Shown here piece after piece: positions 5,388 to 16,589 of a stretch of 34,064 nucleotides of DNA. The notes below the pieces were generated by a model. The model saw only the letters and a list, made by a program, of their open reading frames with translations. It was not told where the DNA came from and did not search any database. Source of the DNA: Bacteroidales bacterium (GTDB lineage: Bacteria; Bacteroidota; Bacteroidia; Bacteroidales; JAAYUG01). The DNA lies in the NCBI GenBank assembly GCA_012517825.1, contig JAAYUG010000131.1:1-34064 (forward strand), in the 5' to 3' direction. The stretch's first letter is position 1. Every line of letters begins with the position of its first letter. The translations under genes were made by a program, and so were the position numbers.

Positions 5388-7409
5388 ATGGATGAAGCAA
5401 AACTGAATGACGATCCTCGTCAGGAGCATGCGACGAAGCCTGAGGGGCCGGTTATGAATCCTGATGATACGGCAGATCCGGTTTCTACCGAATCCGGGAC
5501 TGACTCTGTTTCCCCGGCGGCCGGGAACGAAGAGCTTACAGCCGTTATTGCGGAAGATCACGCTGATGGCATGGAGGAGATTATAACGGATGAGGTTCTG
5601 CTGACGGAGCAGGAAGGCATATTGCCTGAACATGCCGACGAATTTGAAGGCGTGCACGAAGATCTGGCGAAGGCTGCCGAAGCGGCCGATTATTCCCGGC
5701 TTGACAGGGCAGAACTTCTGCAGGCTTTGAAAAATCTGATCGCCAATACGCCCATTCATCAGATCGGAGATGAAGCGGATCTGATCAAGATAAACTTTTA
5801 CAAAAAATACAAGATTGAAAATGAACGCCGCCGGAAGAAGTTCATCGAAGAAGGCGGCAGAATGGAAGACTTCCATCCCGAAGAAGACCCGCTGGAAACG
5901 GAATTCAAGGAGGTTTTCCATCAGTACCGCGAATTGCGGGCTGACTACAACCGGAAACAGGAGGAAGAAAAGCAGGAAAACCTGAAAGCCAAGTACCAGA
6001 TCATTGAAGAAATAAAAGAACTGGTTAACCGCAGTGAGTCAATCAATGCCACCTTTCAGGAATTCAGGGAACTTCAGAAGCGCTGGCGGAGTATAGGTCC
6101 CGTACCCCAGCAGAACGTCAAGGACCTGTGGGAAACTTACAACCACCATGTTGAAGTTTTCTATGACTACATTAAGCTGAACAAGGAACTGCGCGATCTG
6201 GACTTCAAGAAAAACCTGGAAACAAAGATCAGCTTATGTGAGCGTGCCGAAGAACTGCTTCTCGAGCCGGATGTGCCAAAGGCGTTCAGAATACTTCAGG
6301 AACTGCATGAGGAGTGGCGCGACACGGGTCCGGTGCCGCACGAAATGCGCGAAGAAATCTGGAACCGCTTTAAGGAAATTACTTCCAAGATTAACAAGCG
6401 GCATCATGAATATTATGAAAGCCTGAAATCCCAGCAGGTTAAGAATCTGGAACAAAAGACCGCCCTCTGTGAAAAGGCTGAAGAAATAGCCGCATCGGGT
6501 ATCAGCACCATGAAAGAATGGGAAAAGCGTTACCGCGAGATACTCGAACTTCAGCAGGTATGGAAAACGATAGGCTTTGCCCCGCGGAAGGAAAATCAGA
6601 AGATTTACCAGCGTTTTCGTGCTGCCTGCGATGATTTCTTCCGCCGTCGGCGTGAATTCTTCCAGAAAATGAAGGAAGAACAGCACAACAACCTGCAGTT
6701 GAAAACCGAACTCTGCCTGCAGGCTGAAGCCCTCAAAGACAGTACCGAGTGGAAAAAGACAACGGAAGACCTGATCAACATCCAGAAACGCTGGAAGGAA
6801 ATCGGGCCGGTTCCGCGGAGATATTCCGATGCCATCTGGAAACGTTTCCGCGCTGCCTGCGATGAATTTTTCAACCGGAAAGCGGCATATTACGCAGGAA
6901 TTGACAGCCAGTACGAAGAAAACCTGAAGAAAAAACTCGAGCTGATTGAAGAAATCGAGAAATACCAGCCTGTGGAAAGCGTGGAGGAAAACTTCCGCAA
7001 CCTGAAAGAATTCCAGAGGCGCTGGACTGAAATAGGTTTTGTTCCTCTGAAAGACAAGGAACAGGTTCAGCAGAGGTATAAGGAAGCCATCACCCGTCAT
7101 TTTGAAGGGCTGAAGATGGATGATGAAAGAAAGAATCTCCTGCGTTTCCGGAACCGCCTCGATGCGCTTCAGCAGAAGCCAAGAGGAAACCAGAAGATTA
7201 AGGCCGAACGCGAGCGCCTGATTGGAAAACTTAAACAGCTGGAAAACGAAATTTCGCTCTGGGAAAACAACATAGGCTTCTTCATCAAGTCAAAAAATGC
7301 CGAGTCAATGATCAGTGAAGTGCAGAAAAAGATTGATGATGCAAAGGCACGGATTACCGAGCTCGAGGAAAAAATCCGCATCATCGACATGCACATTTCT
7401 GAATCGTGA
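5388..7409 (+). CDS. DUF349 repeat protein
   Basis: This 673-residue protein has a very acidic N-terminal region (about residues 1-110). It then has five DUF349 repeats that can be counted from W-x-x-x-G-(P/F)-x-P motifs at Trp233, Trp310, Trp392, Trp469 and Trp546. Their spacings are 77, 82, 77 and 77 residues. The repeats are charged and helical, and the last 80 residues (AESMISEVQKKIDDAKARI and around) look like a coiled coil. There is no signal peptide, so it should be cytoplasmic. DUF349 proteins are widespread in Bacteroidota, but a molecular role is not established to my knowledge. ATG at 5388 is preferred to the in-frame TTG at 5373. It lies 41 bases ahead of pyrG and is probably co-transcribed with it. 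Confidence 0.85.
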   Translation: MDEAKLNDDPRQEHATKPEGPVMNPDDTADPVSTESGTDSVSPAAGNEELTAVIAEDHADGMEEIITDEVLLTEQEGILPEHADEFEGVHEDLAKAAEAADYSRLDRAELLQALKNLIANTPIHQIGDEADLIKINFYKKYKIENERRRKKFIEEGGRMEDFHPEEDPLETEFKEVFHQYRELRADYNRKQEEEKQENLKAKYQIIEEIKELVNRSESINATFQEFRELQKRWRSIGPVPQQNVKDLWETYNHHVEVFYDYIKLNKELRDLDFKKNLETKISLCERAEELLLEPDVPKAFRILQELHEEWRDTGPVPHEMREEIWNRFKEITSKINKRHHEYYESLKSQQVKNLEQKTALCEKAEEIAASGISTMKEWEKRYREILELQQVWKTIGFAPRKENQKIYQRFRAACDDFFRRRREFFQKMKEEQHNNLQLKTELCLQAEALKDSTEWKKTTEDLINIQKRWKEIGPVPRRYSDAIWKRFRAACDEFFNRKAAYYAGIDSQYEENLKKKLELIEEIEKYQPVESVEENFRNLKEFQRRWTEIGFVPLKDKEQVQQRYKEAITRHFEGLKMDDERKNLLRFRNRLDALQQKPRGNQKIKAERERLIGKLKQLENEISLWENNIGFFIKSKNAESMISEVQKKIDDAKARITELEEKIRIIDMHISES

Positions 7410-13624: not shown

Positions 13625-13901
13625 AACACAGCATATCGGCCAGATACTGGAAGACATTCTGTCGGAATTTCAGATCGGGAGGAAGATGAAAGAAGCCCGG
13701 ATTCTGAATGCGTGGGATGAGGTGGTGGGGTCTTACGTACGTTCCCATACGGTCAAAACCTATATCCGCAACCGGATTCTTTTTGTGGAATTTGACTCGG
13801 CCGTTATACGCAACGAGGTTTTCATGATGAGGGAACAACTGACATCCCGGCTGAATGATGCCGCCGGGGGTCATGTTATCGAAAAAATTGTGTTCAGGTG
13901 A
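13611..13901 (+). CDS. dciA: DciA-like protein (DUF721)
   Basis: A 96-residue DUF721 protein. DciA is the ancestral bacterial factor that helps load the replicative helicase DnaB where DnaC/DnaI is absent. The sequence has the family core ILNAWDEVVGSYVRSHT, then a beta-strand segment NRILFVEFDSAVIRNEVFM and a closing Arg/Asn-rich helix. ATG 13611 is inside the end of recF; the frame is open further upstream, but only because it runs antiparallel in phase through recF, and a start there would give no family similarity. The stop overlaps the start of tilS. The order recF-dciA supports the identification. Confidence 0.88.
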   Translation: MRRSETQHIGQILEDILSEFQIGRKMKEARILNAWDEVVGSYVRSHTVKTYIRNRILFVEFDSAVIRNEVFMMREQLTSRLNDAAGGHVIEKIVFR

Positions 13902-15265
13902 AAACGATGCACGCCTCAAAACCGGAAGACCAGTTTACTGAGCGGCTGAAGGCTTTTGCCGAAGAGAACCGTTTCTTCACAAGCCATTCGAAAGTGCTTC
14001 TGGCCGTGAGCGGAGGAATTGATTCGATGGTCATGGCCCATGCCATGCATTGTCTGGGGAGGGTCCAGGGAATTGCCCACTGCAATTTTCAGTTGCGTGG
14101 CAAAGAATCAGATGATGATGAGGCATTTGTCAGAGAATGGGCCAACCAACACGGGATTCCCTTTCACCTTCAACGTTTCGAAACGGAACGCCATGCACTT
14201 CTGCAGGGAATTTCCCTGCAAATGGCAGCACGTGAACTGCGTTACGGATGGTTTAAAGAGCTGTGCAGGCAGTATGGTTATACGCAGGTTGCCATGGCCC
14301 ATCACCTGGATGACCAGGCCGAAACCTTTTTTATCAACCTGGCCCGGGGCTCAGGCATTAAAGGCCTGGCAGGAATGCCCGCCATGCAGGACGTATTCAT
14401 CCGTCCTCTTCTTTTTACCAACAGAGCCGAAATTGAAGAATATGCCAGGCGCAACGGCATAAGCTGGAGGGAAGACTCTTCCAATCCAACCGAAAAGTAT
14501 TTGCGGAACAAAATACGTCACCGCCTGATCCCCCTGTTCGAATCCATCTATCCCGGTGCCACTGAAAACCTGCTCCAGGCTATGAAAAAGCTTGGAAACA
14601 GCTACCAGATCTGTTCCCGACGACTTGGGGAGTTCATAAACGACGTTGCTGACATTGAAAAAGGGATGACCCGCATCAGCATATCCCGGCTGAACCAGTG
14701 GCCCGACGCCAAAAATCTGCTCACGGAATACCTGGCTCCCTTCCATTTTCATCCCGATATAATTGATGCGGTTTACGCAAATCTGAACGCACAATCAGGA
14801 AAGACCTTCTGCTCATCATCCCACAGGATCACCAAGGACCGGGAAAACCTGTACATAGAGAAAATACAGGAACCTGCCGACGAAGAATACGAAATTGAAG
14901 AAGGAATTCGCTCGCTGACATTCCCCGTGAATATGAAAATCATTTCCTTCCCCAGACCGCGCGGGTATCTTCTGCCTGATTCTCCTCTGGTGGCTTCACT
15001 CGATTACGATAAAATTCAGTTTCCGCTGGTCTTGAGGAAATGGAAAACCGGTGATGCTTTTATTCCACTGGGAATGAAAGGAAGAAAAAAAATCAGCGAC
15101 TTTTTTACCGATAAAAAGATACCTGTTCCGTTAAAAAAGCGAATCTGGCTCCTGACCTCAGCGGGCGAAATTGTCTGGGTCATCGGGTATCGCATCGATC
15201 ATCGCTACCGGATAACTGAAAAAACCAGGAACATCCTGTACATTGAATATTTCCCTCCCGAATAA
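13898..15265 (+). CDS. tilS: tRNA(Ile)-lysidine synthetase
   Basis: TilS attaches lysine to C34 of the CAU anticodon of tRNA-Ile2 using ATP, so the tRNA reads AUA as isoleucine. The 455-residue protein has the PP-loop SGGIDSM at residues 38-44, followed by the family segments VAMAHHLDDQAETF and RPLLFTNRAEIEEYARR. A linker and the C-terminal TilS domain (FIPLGMKGRKKISDFF) follow. The start is GTG 13898, sharing four bases (GTGA) with the dciA stop. ATG 13907 is an alternative that would remove three residues and the overlap. It is the last gene of the recF-dciA-tilS run. Confidence 0.95.
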   Translation: MKTMHASKPEDQFTERLKAFAEENRFFTSHSKVLLAVSGGIDSMVMAHAMHCLGRVQGIAHCNFQLRGKESDDDEAFVREWANQHGIPFHLQRFETERHALLQGISLQMAARELRYGWFKELCRQYGYTQVAMAHHLDDQAETFFINLARGSGIKGLAGMPAMQDVFIRPLLFTNRAEIEEYARRNGISWREDSSNPTEKYLRNKIRHRLIPLFESIYPGATENLLQAMKKLGNSYQICSRRLGEFINDVADIEKGMTRISISRLNQWPDAKNLLTEYLAPFHFHPDIIDAVYANLNAQSGKTFCSSSHRITKDRENLYIEKIQEPADEEYEIEEGIRSLTFPVNMKIISFPRPRGYLLPDSPLVASLDYDKIQFPLVLRKWKTGDAFIPLGMKGRKKISDFFTDKKIPVPLKKRIWLLTSAGEIVWVIGYRIDHRYRITEKTRNILYIEYFPPE

Positions 15266-15310
15266 AGATGATCTATATCACCTTTTCACAGAACAAAGAT
15301 CATTTTTTTC
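15264..15310 (+). terminator. Weak terminator candidate after tilS
   Basis: AAAGATGATC (15264-15273) can pair with GATCATTTTT (15298-15307, one G-U pair) across a long 24-base loop, and the T run continues to 15309. It overlaps the tilS stop codon. The loop is long, so efficiency is doubtful. Confidence 0.4.
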
Positions 15311-15358
15311 ATTAGCAAAACTCAACAGCAAAACGGTAACCAATATATGAATTACCCG

Positions 15359-15366
15359 TACATTTG
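15359..15366 (+). promoter_or_regulatory. -7 element for a possible small RNA
   Basis: TACATTTG matches TAnnTTTG exactly and lies inside the small palindrome GTACATTTGTAC. There is no TTTG at the -33 position. If used, a transcript from about 15373 would end at the terminator near 15560. Confidence 0.35.
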
Positions 15367-15372
15367 TACAGA

Positions 15373-15560
15373 CAAATTACCGGTCATTGAGGGTTTGCAG
15401 GAAGCGATAAGGGTTATCATGGTTGGATGCTTCGTTGCAGAAAGAGAAACAGGTTTTTTTCATAGGCTTTAGTATTAGTTGTTTAGGGTAAAGGTTAATG
15501 CTGGTAGTTTGATTTAGGGTTGATGAAAGGTGCCGGAATTTTTTCCGGCACCTTTTTCTT
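15373..15560 (+). ncRNA. Candidate small RNA of about 190 nt
   Basis: The segment begins just after TACATTTG and ends in a strong terminator. It has no plus-strand reading frame of note. Its 5' part can fold: GCAGGAAGC near 15396 pairs imperfectly with GCTTCGTTGC ending near 15439, enclosing a hairpin GATAA-GGG-TTATC. The 3' part is G/U/A-rich, with two imperfect TTTAGGGT repeats. I do not recognise a known RNA family. The alternative is that the minus strand is the transcribed one, see the small ORF at 15377-15463. Confidence 0.3.
15377..15463 (-). CDS. Possible 28-residue small protein or decayed gene start
   Basis: ATG AAA AAA ACC opens a frame encoding MKKTCFSFCNEASN and continuing to NDR at the stop. 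Its codons (AAC, GAC, CTG, ACC) resemble those of neighbouring genes. The upstream minus-strand sequence is C/A-rich and unstructured near the start codon, like a Bacteroidota mRNA leader, and TAATTTTG at 15603-15610 could be its -7 element. It could be a real small protein, a leader peptide, or the remaining 5' end of a lost gene. No homology can be claimed. Confidence 0.25.
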   Translation of the reverse strand: MKKTCFSFCNEASNHDNPYRFLQTLNDR

Positions 15561-15563
15561 TTT
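15526..15563 (+). terminator. Strong rho-independent terminator with no gene directly upstream
   Basis: AAAGGTGCCGGAA (15526-15538) pairs perfectly with TTCCGGCACCTTT (15543-15555) around a TTTT loop, and the plus strand continues TTCTTTTTG. The minus strand has no T run after the stem. It lies 260 bases beyond the tilS stop, too far for an ordinary tilS terminator. Confidence 0.75.
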
Positions 15564-15650
15564 GTTCTGATGCAACAGATGGTGACACACATCATCCAAT
15601 GTCAAAATTAACATCACTCTTTTTTAGGGAACATTCTAAAAGCGGCGACG

Positions 15651-15658
15651 TATCTTTA
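15651..15658 (+). promoter_or_regulatory. -7 element for the periplasmic TPR gene
   Basis: TATCTTTA (seven of eight bases of TAnnTTTG) ends 23 bases before ATG 15682. No clear -33 box. Confidence 0.45.
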
Positions 15659-15681
15659 TCTAGAAATTAAAACCTACCATT

Positions 15682-16287
15682 ATGAAAACCTGCCTGATCC
15701 TTTCACTTTTTCTGGTTCCGCTGGCACTTTTTGCGCAGCCTTCCGAGTCGACCCAGCAGAGAGCTCCTGTATATGAGGCCAATAATACCGCTTCCGTGCA
15801 GATTGCACCGGATTATTACAGCATGGTGCTGATGCAGGCAGAACAAGCAGCTCAGAAAGAACAGTACAGCAAGGCGATTAAACTACTGAAAGAATATATC
15901 AGTGCGAATGATACCTCAGCGACCCTGTGCACAAAGCTTGCCATATTGTATCTTGAAAACGGACAATATGTAAAATCCCTCAAGGCGGCGAGCCACGCGT
16001 CAGAGCTAAATCCTTCCGATCCGCGGAATTTCAATATTATGGGAATCACGCTGTTCTACCTGGGGAATTATGAACAGGCGCTGAATGCCTATACCAGGGC
16101 CATTGCCCTGAATCCATCCTTTGCGGTTGCCTATTATAACAGAGGCCTGCTCCGGTACGAAATCAATGATAAAAATGGGGCTTATTCCGATTTAATGAAA
16201 GCCCGGGAACTCAACTTTGAAGGTATTGACAGCATCATAGGCGAACTGTTTGCTTATCGCAGCAAAAAAGAAAAGGATAATCAGTAA
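15682..16287 (+). CDS. Secreted tetratricopeptide repeat protein
   Basis: A 201-residue protein with a classical signal peptide (MKTCLILSLFLVPLALFAQ, cleavage expected after Ala18), so it is exported to the periplasm. The mature part holds about four TPR units from residue 55 on, for example AEQAAQKEQYSKAIKLLKEY, KLAILYLENGQYVKSLKAAS, IMGITLFYLGNYEQALNAYT and YNRGLLRYEINDKNGAYSDL. TPR arrays serve protein-protein contact, and no enzyme domain is present. It has its own promoter and is followed by a repeat-rich spacer, so it seems monocistronic. Its partner cannot be named from sequence. Confidence 0.85.
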   Translation: MKTCLILSLFLVPLALFAQPSESTQQRAPVYEANNTASVQIAPDYYSMVLMQAEQAAQKEQYSKAIKLLKEYISANDTSATLCTKLAILYLENGQYVKSLKAASHASELNPSDPRNFNIMGITLFYLGNYEQALNAYTRAIALNPSFAVAYYNRGLLRYEINDKNGAYSDLMKARELNFEGIDSIIGELFAYRSKKEKDNQ

Positions 16288-16589
16288 TTCTTGCTTTTCC
16301 AAGCTGTACAGACAAAATCCAAAGGGGTGATATTATAAAACAGCCAATAATGCCACCCCTTCAGGGCTCCTGTTTATCTTCTCTATCTTGATTCTACTAT
16401 AATGTCGCCCTTTCAGGGCTGATGTTATTTTTGAAATTTGGTTCTGAAGATTTTTTTTCGCGGGAAAGGCAAAAAAACCTTCGCTTTCTGCCGGAATGTT
16501 GGAATTACAGGCAAAGTAAAGCCCGCATAAAGGCCTGTGCGCGGATGCGGGCAAAAGATGTATATTAGCAGGCAACAAAATCTGCTGAT
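16288..16589. other. 302-base spacer with dispersed repeats
   Basis: The spacer between the TPR gene and the M14 peptidase gene holds three units of the CCCC(T)GAAGG repeat family and is otherwise unremarkable. Its last 60 bases are GC-richer and carry TATATTAG (16561-16568), a weak -7 candidate for the peptidase gene. Confidence 0.5.
16319..16420. repeat. Cluster of three CCC(T)GAAGGGG-type repeats
   Basis: One partial unit (AAAGGGGTGATATTATAA, from about 16321) is in the plus orientation. Two units, ATAATGCCACCCCTTCAGGG (from 16347) and ATAATGTCGCCCTTTCAGGG (from 16399), are inverted and differ at three positions. The two inverted units start 52 bases apart, close to the 54-base spacing at 3044-3120. 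Confidence 0.6.

Follow-up and report, generated by a model that had tools for sequence, protein, structure and literature searches.

The segment between tilS (13898-15265) and a TPR protein gene (15682-16287) is, judged by its sequence, a real and conserved non-coding RNA gene, and it likely encodes a trans-acting small RNA (sRNA) of about 190 nt that is antisense to start codons. We read it as an sRNA of the FopS/GibS type with an added 5′ module. In Bacteroides thetaiotaomicron, FopS and GibS are described, in the available text of PMC11697453 and PMC7366714, as binding around start codons with their seed R1 and repressing translation. The available text of PMC7366714 also states that Bacteroidetes mRNAs are devoid of Shine-Dalgarno sequences and calls target finding by trans-acting sRNAs in these bacteria an open question. 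The window, i.e., the whole stretch of 34,064 nt that was analysed, belongs to a 3.3-Mb assembly of 207 contigs (G000, here the source genome), and G001 is a sister genome of the same genus. R2 is a profile of short relatives from other genomes, introduced below. The features are:

15359-15366, plus strand: promoter-like element TACATTTG (TAnnTTTG), recognized by sequence; reads TATATTTG in G001
15373-15560, plus strand: predicted small RNA; 174/189 aligned positions identical in G001, fold z -5.18
15373-15390, plus strand: 5′ strand of stem P1; pair probabilities 0.69-1.0, unchanged in G001
15377-15463, minus strand: 28-codon ORF (MKKTCFSF...), judged non-coding from codon changes and a frame shift relative to G001
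15395-15439, plus strand: predicted apical hairpin of the 5′ module; weakly supported, four pairs break in G001
15445-15494, plus strand: first R2 piece, profile positions 4-48; 18.9 bits, E 0.003 in the whole source genome
15452-15466, plus strand: putative anti-start seed GGUUUUUUUCAUAGG, complement of CCUAUGAAAAAAACC
15482-15489, plus strand: first copy of UUUAGGGU
15495-15511, plus strand: 3′ strand of stem P1 (predicted pairing), between the two UUUAGGGU copies
15507-15563, plus strand: second R2 piece, with the second UUUAGGGU and the terminator, profile positions 30-87; 13.6 bits, E 0.145 in the whole source genome
15526-15555, plus strand: intrinsic terminator hairpin with 13-bp arms

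The predicted RNA lies 107 nt past tilS, whose product carries PF01171 and TilS_C domains (Pfam), and 120 nt ahead of the TPR gene. According to the original prediction, a TAnnTTTG element and a perfect 13-bp terminator frame about 190 nt that hold no plus-strand gene. Both elements are found, at 15359-15366 and 15526-15555; the terminator arms (15526-15538 and 15543-15555) match perfectly, the loop is TTTT and the tail T-rich, and no plus-strand ORF in the gap between the genes reaches 60 aa. On the plus strand of the gap (15266-15681), TACATTTG is the single TAnnTTTG; 0.33 are expected on average per shuffled gap (500 dinucleotide shuffles), and the plus strand of the 34-kb window has 16. 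Taken alone, the element is weakly suggestive of a promoter. There is no clear -33 box upstream of it, and the G001 version TATATTTG differs solely at a free position of the motif. The 5′ end at 15373 was placed from this element and the outer P1 pair. At gathering threshold, the only Rfam match in the whole window is a single tRNA.

Conservation was assessed by alignment to G001. The order tilS, segment, TPR gene is retained in this one genome, with 1107/1368 identical positions in tilS (81%) and 472/607 in the TPR gene (78%). Within the gap, identity is 76/93 upstream of the RNA, 174/189 in the RNA and 81/125 (65%) downstream of the terminator. The stretches 15359-15391 (32/33) and 15441-15532 (90/92) are nearly unchanged, and the latter contains the longest identical run of the 3.4-kb alignment, 88 nt (15445-15532; second longest, 38 nt). 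Further upstream, 28 bases (15292-15319) ahead of the promoter-like element are identical in both species and may be a regulator or UP-type site. Past the TPR gene, about 250 bp (16302-16551) stand against 16 bases in the aligned G001 sequence.

Searching 393 genomes of the order with a model of the long-form RNA (R1) recovered it in the source genome and G001 only (242-243 bits), the next match scoring 33.1 bits. The 28 lower R1 loci listed were mostly terminators, with several gene starts and one locus (L078) that resembles another FopS-like sRNA. A genome of the same family (G002, 78% complete) had no R1 match, and a 30-base pattern allowing three mismatches hit only the window site in the source genome.

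The opposite strand had been credited with a native-looking 28-codon ORF preceded by a leader-like upstream, leaving the choice between a small RNA and a small protein or decayed gene. The ORF is present, with the product MKKTCFSFCNEASNHDNPYRFLQTLNDR* and the G001 counterpart MKKTCFCLCTEASHHDTPQRFLQEPQ, and was rejected as coding: six of the seven codons that changed ahead of a 1-base indel are nonsynonymous (9/10 over the entire ORF, three of the changes lying at or after the indel), and the indel puts the ORF end in another frame in the sister species. Conservation peaks upstream of and at the ORF start and not in its body; the least conserved stretch of the RNA, 15392-15440 (41/50), comprises the apical hairpin and most of the ORF body. 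That the minus strand encodes a 28-codon protein or preserves a decayed gene start is extremely improbable on these grounds, despite the typical leader and MKK start and despite the real gene-start consensus to which the RNA core is complementary. The leader is real as sequence but is the complement of a common translation-start region inside the RNA; the native look of the ORF is explained by the conserved core GGUUUUUUUCAUAGGCUUUAGUAUUAG, which is complementary to a Bacteroidota leader with its start codon. Of the two options, the small RNA is thus favoured by conservation, by the kept promoter-like and terminator elements and by family resemblance, and the protein is disfavoured by the codon changes and the shifted frame. 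A decayed gene may nevertheless be the distant origin of the start-complement segment.

This complementarity emerged from a blastn search with the RNA against the 393 order genomes, which gave matches at E ≤0.01 in 36 of them (source genome and G001 included), most of the matches listed falling inside 15428-15492. Among 28 non-self loci that were fetched, 15 have an opposite ORF of at least 78 aa whose ATG lies in or adjoins the match; hence, the RNA contains the complement of a leader and start codon. Two further loci (L011 and L017) are short sRNAs, and the remainder are other coding or unclear sites. The start-complement segment is probably the working part of the RNA.

Predicted pairing was evaluated on 368 ORF starts, assigned by a simple rule, from 569 kb of the source genome; for 20 of the 40 stretches sampled, the choice fell largely on contigs in which SusC or the FopS model had matched. 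The seed pairs with these starts at a mean of -21.1, compared with -19.0 for shuffled seeds (sd 0.66; 0/60 as low). In windows inside genes the mean is -22.0 vs -21.4 for 30 shuffled seeds (sd 0.63), and at 306 internal ATGAA windows the raw mean, computed without shuffle control, is -22.7 vs -21.1 at starts. Raw duplex energies are therefore no weaker inside genes than at starts, and the two are separated only via the shuffled seeds and a register test: ATG-aligned, 9.2% of the 368 starts reach at least 16/35 identities, vs 1.0% of 7787 internal ATGs.

The best predicted partners, both on contig C137, are a response regulator near 25.8 kb, which ranks first among the 368 sampled starts (-41.7), and a FadL-type porin near 10.7 kb (predicted duplex, -41.0 kcal/mol). 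A profile of the window core (R3) has four non-self matches at E ≤10, all weak (E 0.31-6.3) and all in translation start regions, namely those of the FadL-type porin, a lysine-rich protein, an exonuclease-like protein (just before the start) and a GH20-like protein. We also compared SusC with other starts, using 12 SusC starts (13 matches over the cut-off minus L200, for which no start was found) and removing nine shared rows from the background. The window seed has no clear SusC preference (-23.3 vs -21.1, p=0.06). The seed of a second sRNA of the source genome, on contig C49, does show a strong predicted preference for SusC (-24.2 vs -17.7 at 359 other starts, p=6e-5; with 15 shuffled seeds the difference is -1.2, sd 0.7), and the seed of the short family described below behaves likewise (p=1.4e-4).

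A gapped pattern derived from the core (TTTTTCATAGG, TTAG and TTTAGGGT) was searched in public species genomes and gave 96 matches in 95 stretches, in which the pattern columns are invariant by construction, and the terminators, missing opposite ORFs, upstream box and other columns are not. At 84 of the matches, including two copies of G001 itself (L126 and L112), a terminator follows directly downstream and the opposite ORF is shorter than 60 aa; we found no published name for these sRNAs. Nine of the remaining 12 resemble gene starts and were dropped for opposite ORFs of 56-1000 aa without terminator (L111, L113, L127, L173, L175, L180, L184, L188 and L189), and three fail one criterion (L163, with a terminator and an opposite ORF of 84 aa; L148 and L183, with a short ORF and no terminator found). 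Among 80 record titles listed, the hosts are nearly all Bacteroidota and mostly Bacteroidales; an archaeal title (L119) and a Lachnospiraceae title (L153) may be binning errors.

These short Bacteroidales sRNAs resemble the window RNA in their CAUAGG seed, the UUUAGGGU element, the terminator directly downstream and the lack of a long opposite ORF, but they have no 5′ module. TAnnTTTG stands 49-53 nt ahead of the matched core in 52 of the 84. Of the 71 with the seed TTAGGTTAG, 70 carry an upstream TTTGGCAYGATATTTG-like box, with TGGCA 32-35 nt before the core in 69 (L105-L199); from the box, a variable spacer leads to a conserved ATAGAGG beside the seed. The box is possibly a dedicated promoter. 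The sigma-54 promoter consensus has a GG-N10-G spacing and a C at -12; 69 of the 70 boxes have the spacing, but none of the 70 has the -12 C, and we do not assign the box to sigma-54. Just ahead of the window seed a similar box was discerned by eye, but G001 does not retain it. Our search of the open-licence literature listed as relevant the RbpB/FopS and GibS papers, a B. thetaiotaomicron transcriptome atlas and a Porphyromonas study of RNA-binding proteins; within it we found no account of these short sRNAs beyond Bacteroidaceae, and none of a form that a stem encloses.

The relation between short and long forms was examined with profile R2, built from 31 short sRNAs of other genomes with the window RNA and the C49 sRNA held out. 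It scores sequence only, because RNAalifold gave no pairs on the 31 sRNAs, whose terminators are out of register. In the whole source genome R2 has 15 matches at E ≤1, of which the best is the orphan sRNA at C49:23816-23886 (29.3 bits, E 1.8e-6). The profile matches the window RNA in two collinear pieces (15445-15494 and 15507-15563), from which we infer that it may be a short sibling with profile positions 30-48 doubled around the P1 3′ strand and the rest of the module added 5′. Another 11 matches include ten translation starts on the opposite strand, those of a response regulator, a FadL-type porin, two SusC proteins, an SDR enzyme, an esterase, a GH20-like protein, an HU-like protein and two proteins without Pfam match (response regulator, SDR, esterase, HU-like and FadL-type named by Pfam; SusC by position; GH20 below cut-off; the rest by eye). 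The response regulator start outscores the first R2 piece of the window RNA (20.0 vs 18.9 bits), as expected if starts and sRNA mirror each other; the score alone therefore does not tell an sRNA from its target.

Together with the window RNA, the source genome thus has an orphan sRNA of the short form (C49:23815-23889, minus strand, L034), with a copy in G001 (L112), and a third candidate (C138:27930-28015, minus strand, L279), which has TTAG repeats and a terminator and is without the CATAGG seed.

The short relatives also bear on a cis-acting origin, in which the RNA would serve the TPR gene as leader or attenuator, or derive from the tilS 3′ UTR, and its similarity to starts would be incidental. 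The close spacing to both genes (107 and 120 nt), the want of a clear -33 box and the TPR gene start itself, which at -32.8 is among the ten best predicted partners of the sample, would fit such an element. Yet a strong terminator separates the RNA from the TPR gene, the gap past it is merely 65% identical between the species, and the short relatives are orphan units in other gene contexts; we regard a cis element as rather unlikely.

That the 5′ part can fold, as originally proposed, agrees with the computations: the predicted fold of the RNA surpasses those of 200 shuffles (z -5.18, terminator included), and 15367-15512, which is without the terminator, still reaches z -3.14. The predicted stem P1 comprises 17 pairs and closes a multibranch fold. 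Its strands are identical in G001, so the comparison neither proves nor breaks P1, and because the long form occurs in two of 393 order genomes, source genome included, P1 is without covariation support. Imposed on G001, the minimum-energy structure of the window RNA keeps 57 of 63 pairs; of the six that it loses, four belong to the apical hairpin, one belongs to the seed hairpin and one is at the terminator loop. The structure predicted for G001 itself keeps 55/63, with eight broken.

The closed multibranch fold with its 17-pair P1 and the repeated UUUAGGGU would also suit another kind of structural or protein-binding RNA, 6S-like or a protein sponge acting through U-rich and AGGGU elements, for which start complementarity would be secondary. 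We consider this quite improbable: the conserved core is matched by the short-sRNA profile, the source genome is without an RF00013 (6S RNA) match, and the Rfam matches at E up to 10 depend mostly on the terminator. The RF00013 search was run at E 0.001, with 5/14 control genomes positive; for Bacteroidota-specific 6S-like families, coverage was limited to scanning the window with Rfam. None of the 20 Rfam matches at E up to 10 (L20 leader with 22.1 bits, GibS, RefA5 and others) reaches its gathering score, and all five low-score alignments displayed include the terminator hairpin.

Among known systems, the preferred reading as a start-antisense sRNA finds its closest parallel in FopS, according to the available text of PMC11697453 a family of paralogous sRNAs (Rfam RF04319) that is conserved within Bacteroidaceae with 12-15 paralogs per genome, is bound by RbpB and has SusC-type mRNAs among its main targets. 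The window RNA shares with FopS a rho-independent terminator and a seed that is, by computation, complementary to the start-codon region (UUUUUCAU core), and two small RRM_1 proteins of 97 aa each, members of the class that includes RbpB, are encoded in the source genome. By analogy, it may work like FopS. Nevertheless, it scores 19.5 bits against the gathering score of 56 and was accordingly not filed as FopS; it has an internal insertion between two UUUAGGGU copies and its SusC preference is at p=0.06. In addition, the FopS seed is single-stranded and 5′ in the published description, whereas some 80 nt separate the window seed from the inferred 5′ end and the predicted P1 encloses it. The C49 sRNA (29.3 bits), L017 (29.6) and L011 (28.5) are likewise below 56. 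FopS itself exceeds the Rfam cut-off in 55 of 295 order genomes, and the matches listed span at least 16 family labels, so that it seems to reach beyond one family.

GibS (RF04182) also acts at start codons, and its seed (model consensus GUGUUUUUCAUAGUAuUAGAU) resembles the window core; as described in the available text of PMC7366714, it differs in that its 5′ seed region is single-stranded and that a second seed, R2, is present. The GibS model has no plus-strand match; its minus-strand match (23 bits against the gathering score of 115) covers the neighbouring TPR gene start.

If transcribed, the window RNA would pair with several mRNAs in the cell, its core (15452-15489) binding their leader and first codons (CCUAUGAAAAAAA type), and would thereby block translation initiation, as described for GibS and FopS of B. 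thetaiotaomicron in the available text of PMC7366714 and PMC11697453. The 5′ module (P1 and apical hairpin), whose 3′ strand lies between the two UUUAGGGU copies, would enclose the seed; it may lend the RNA stability or influence how accessible the seed is, perhaps with an RRM-type RNA-binding protein. We also considered that the long form is a switchable start blocker, with P1 looping the seed and a ligand, temperature or an RNA-binding protein altering access. The long form would then be one branch of a start-antisense sRNA family that spans the order and mostly has its own upstream box. If true, one RNA would join a sensor module to a trans-acting seed; we hold this to be unlikely. Averaged over GGUUUUUUUCAUAGG, the unpaired probability is 0.47 for the full RNA and 0.50 once the 5′ module is removed. 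The prediction thus gives no support to P1 hiding the seed, and with 0.49 in the short relatives and 0.63 in the C49 sRNA, seed accessibility does not discriminate between the forms.

Orphan relatives sharing the core exist in many uncultured Bacteroidales, and the four copies scored (window RNA, C49, L017 and L011) are below the Rfam cut-off, which suggests that start-antisense sRNAs may be a general regulatory layer of the order with the gut FopS as one branch. An RNA that carries the complement of a common leader-plus-start sequence yields testable targets.

Two observations concern the short family separately. Five viral contigs (L292-L296) contain its pattern, with opposite ORFs of 5-31 aa, and in four of them a hairpin and T-rich tail were seen by eye just downstream, suggesting phage-borne members. 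The minus strand of L145 has two near-identical sRNA copies (5711-5735 and 6232-6256) at a distance of roughly 520 nt, and in both of them TATCTTTG precedes the matched core by 29 nt.
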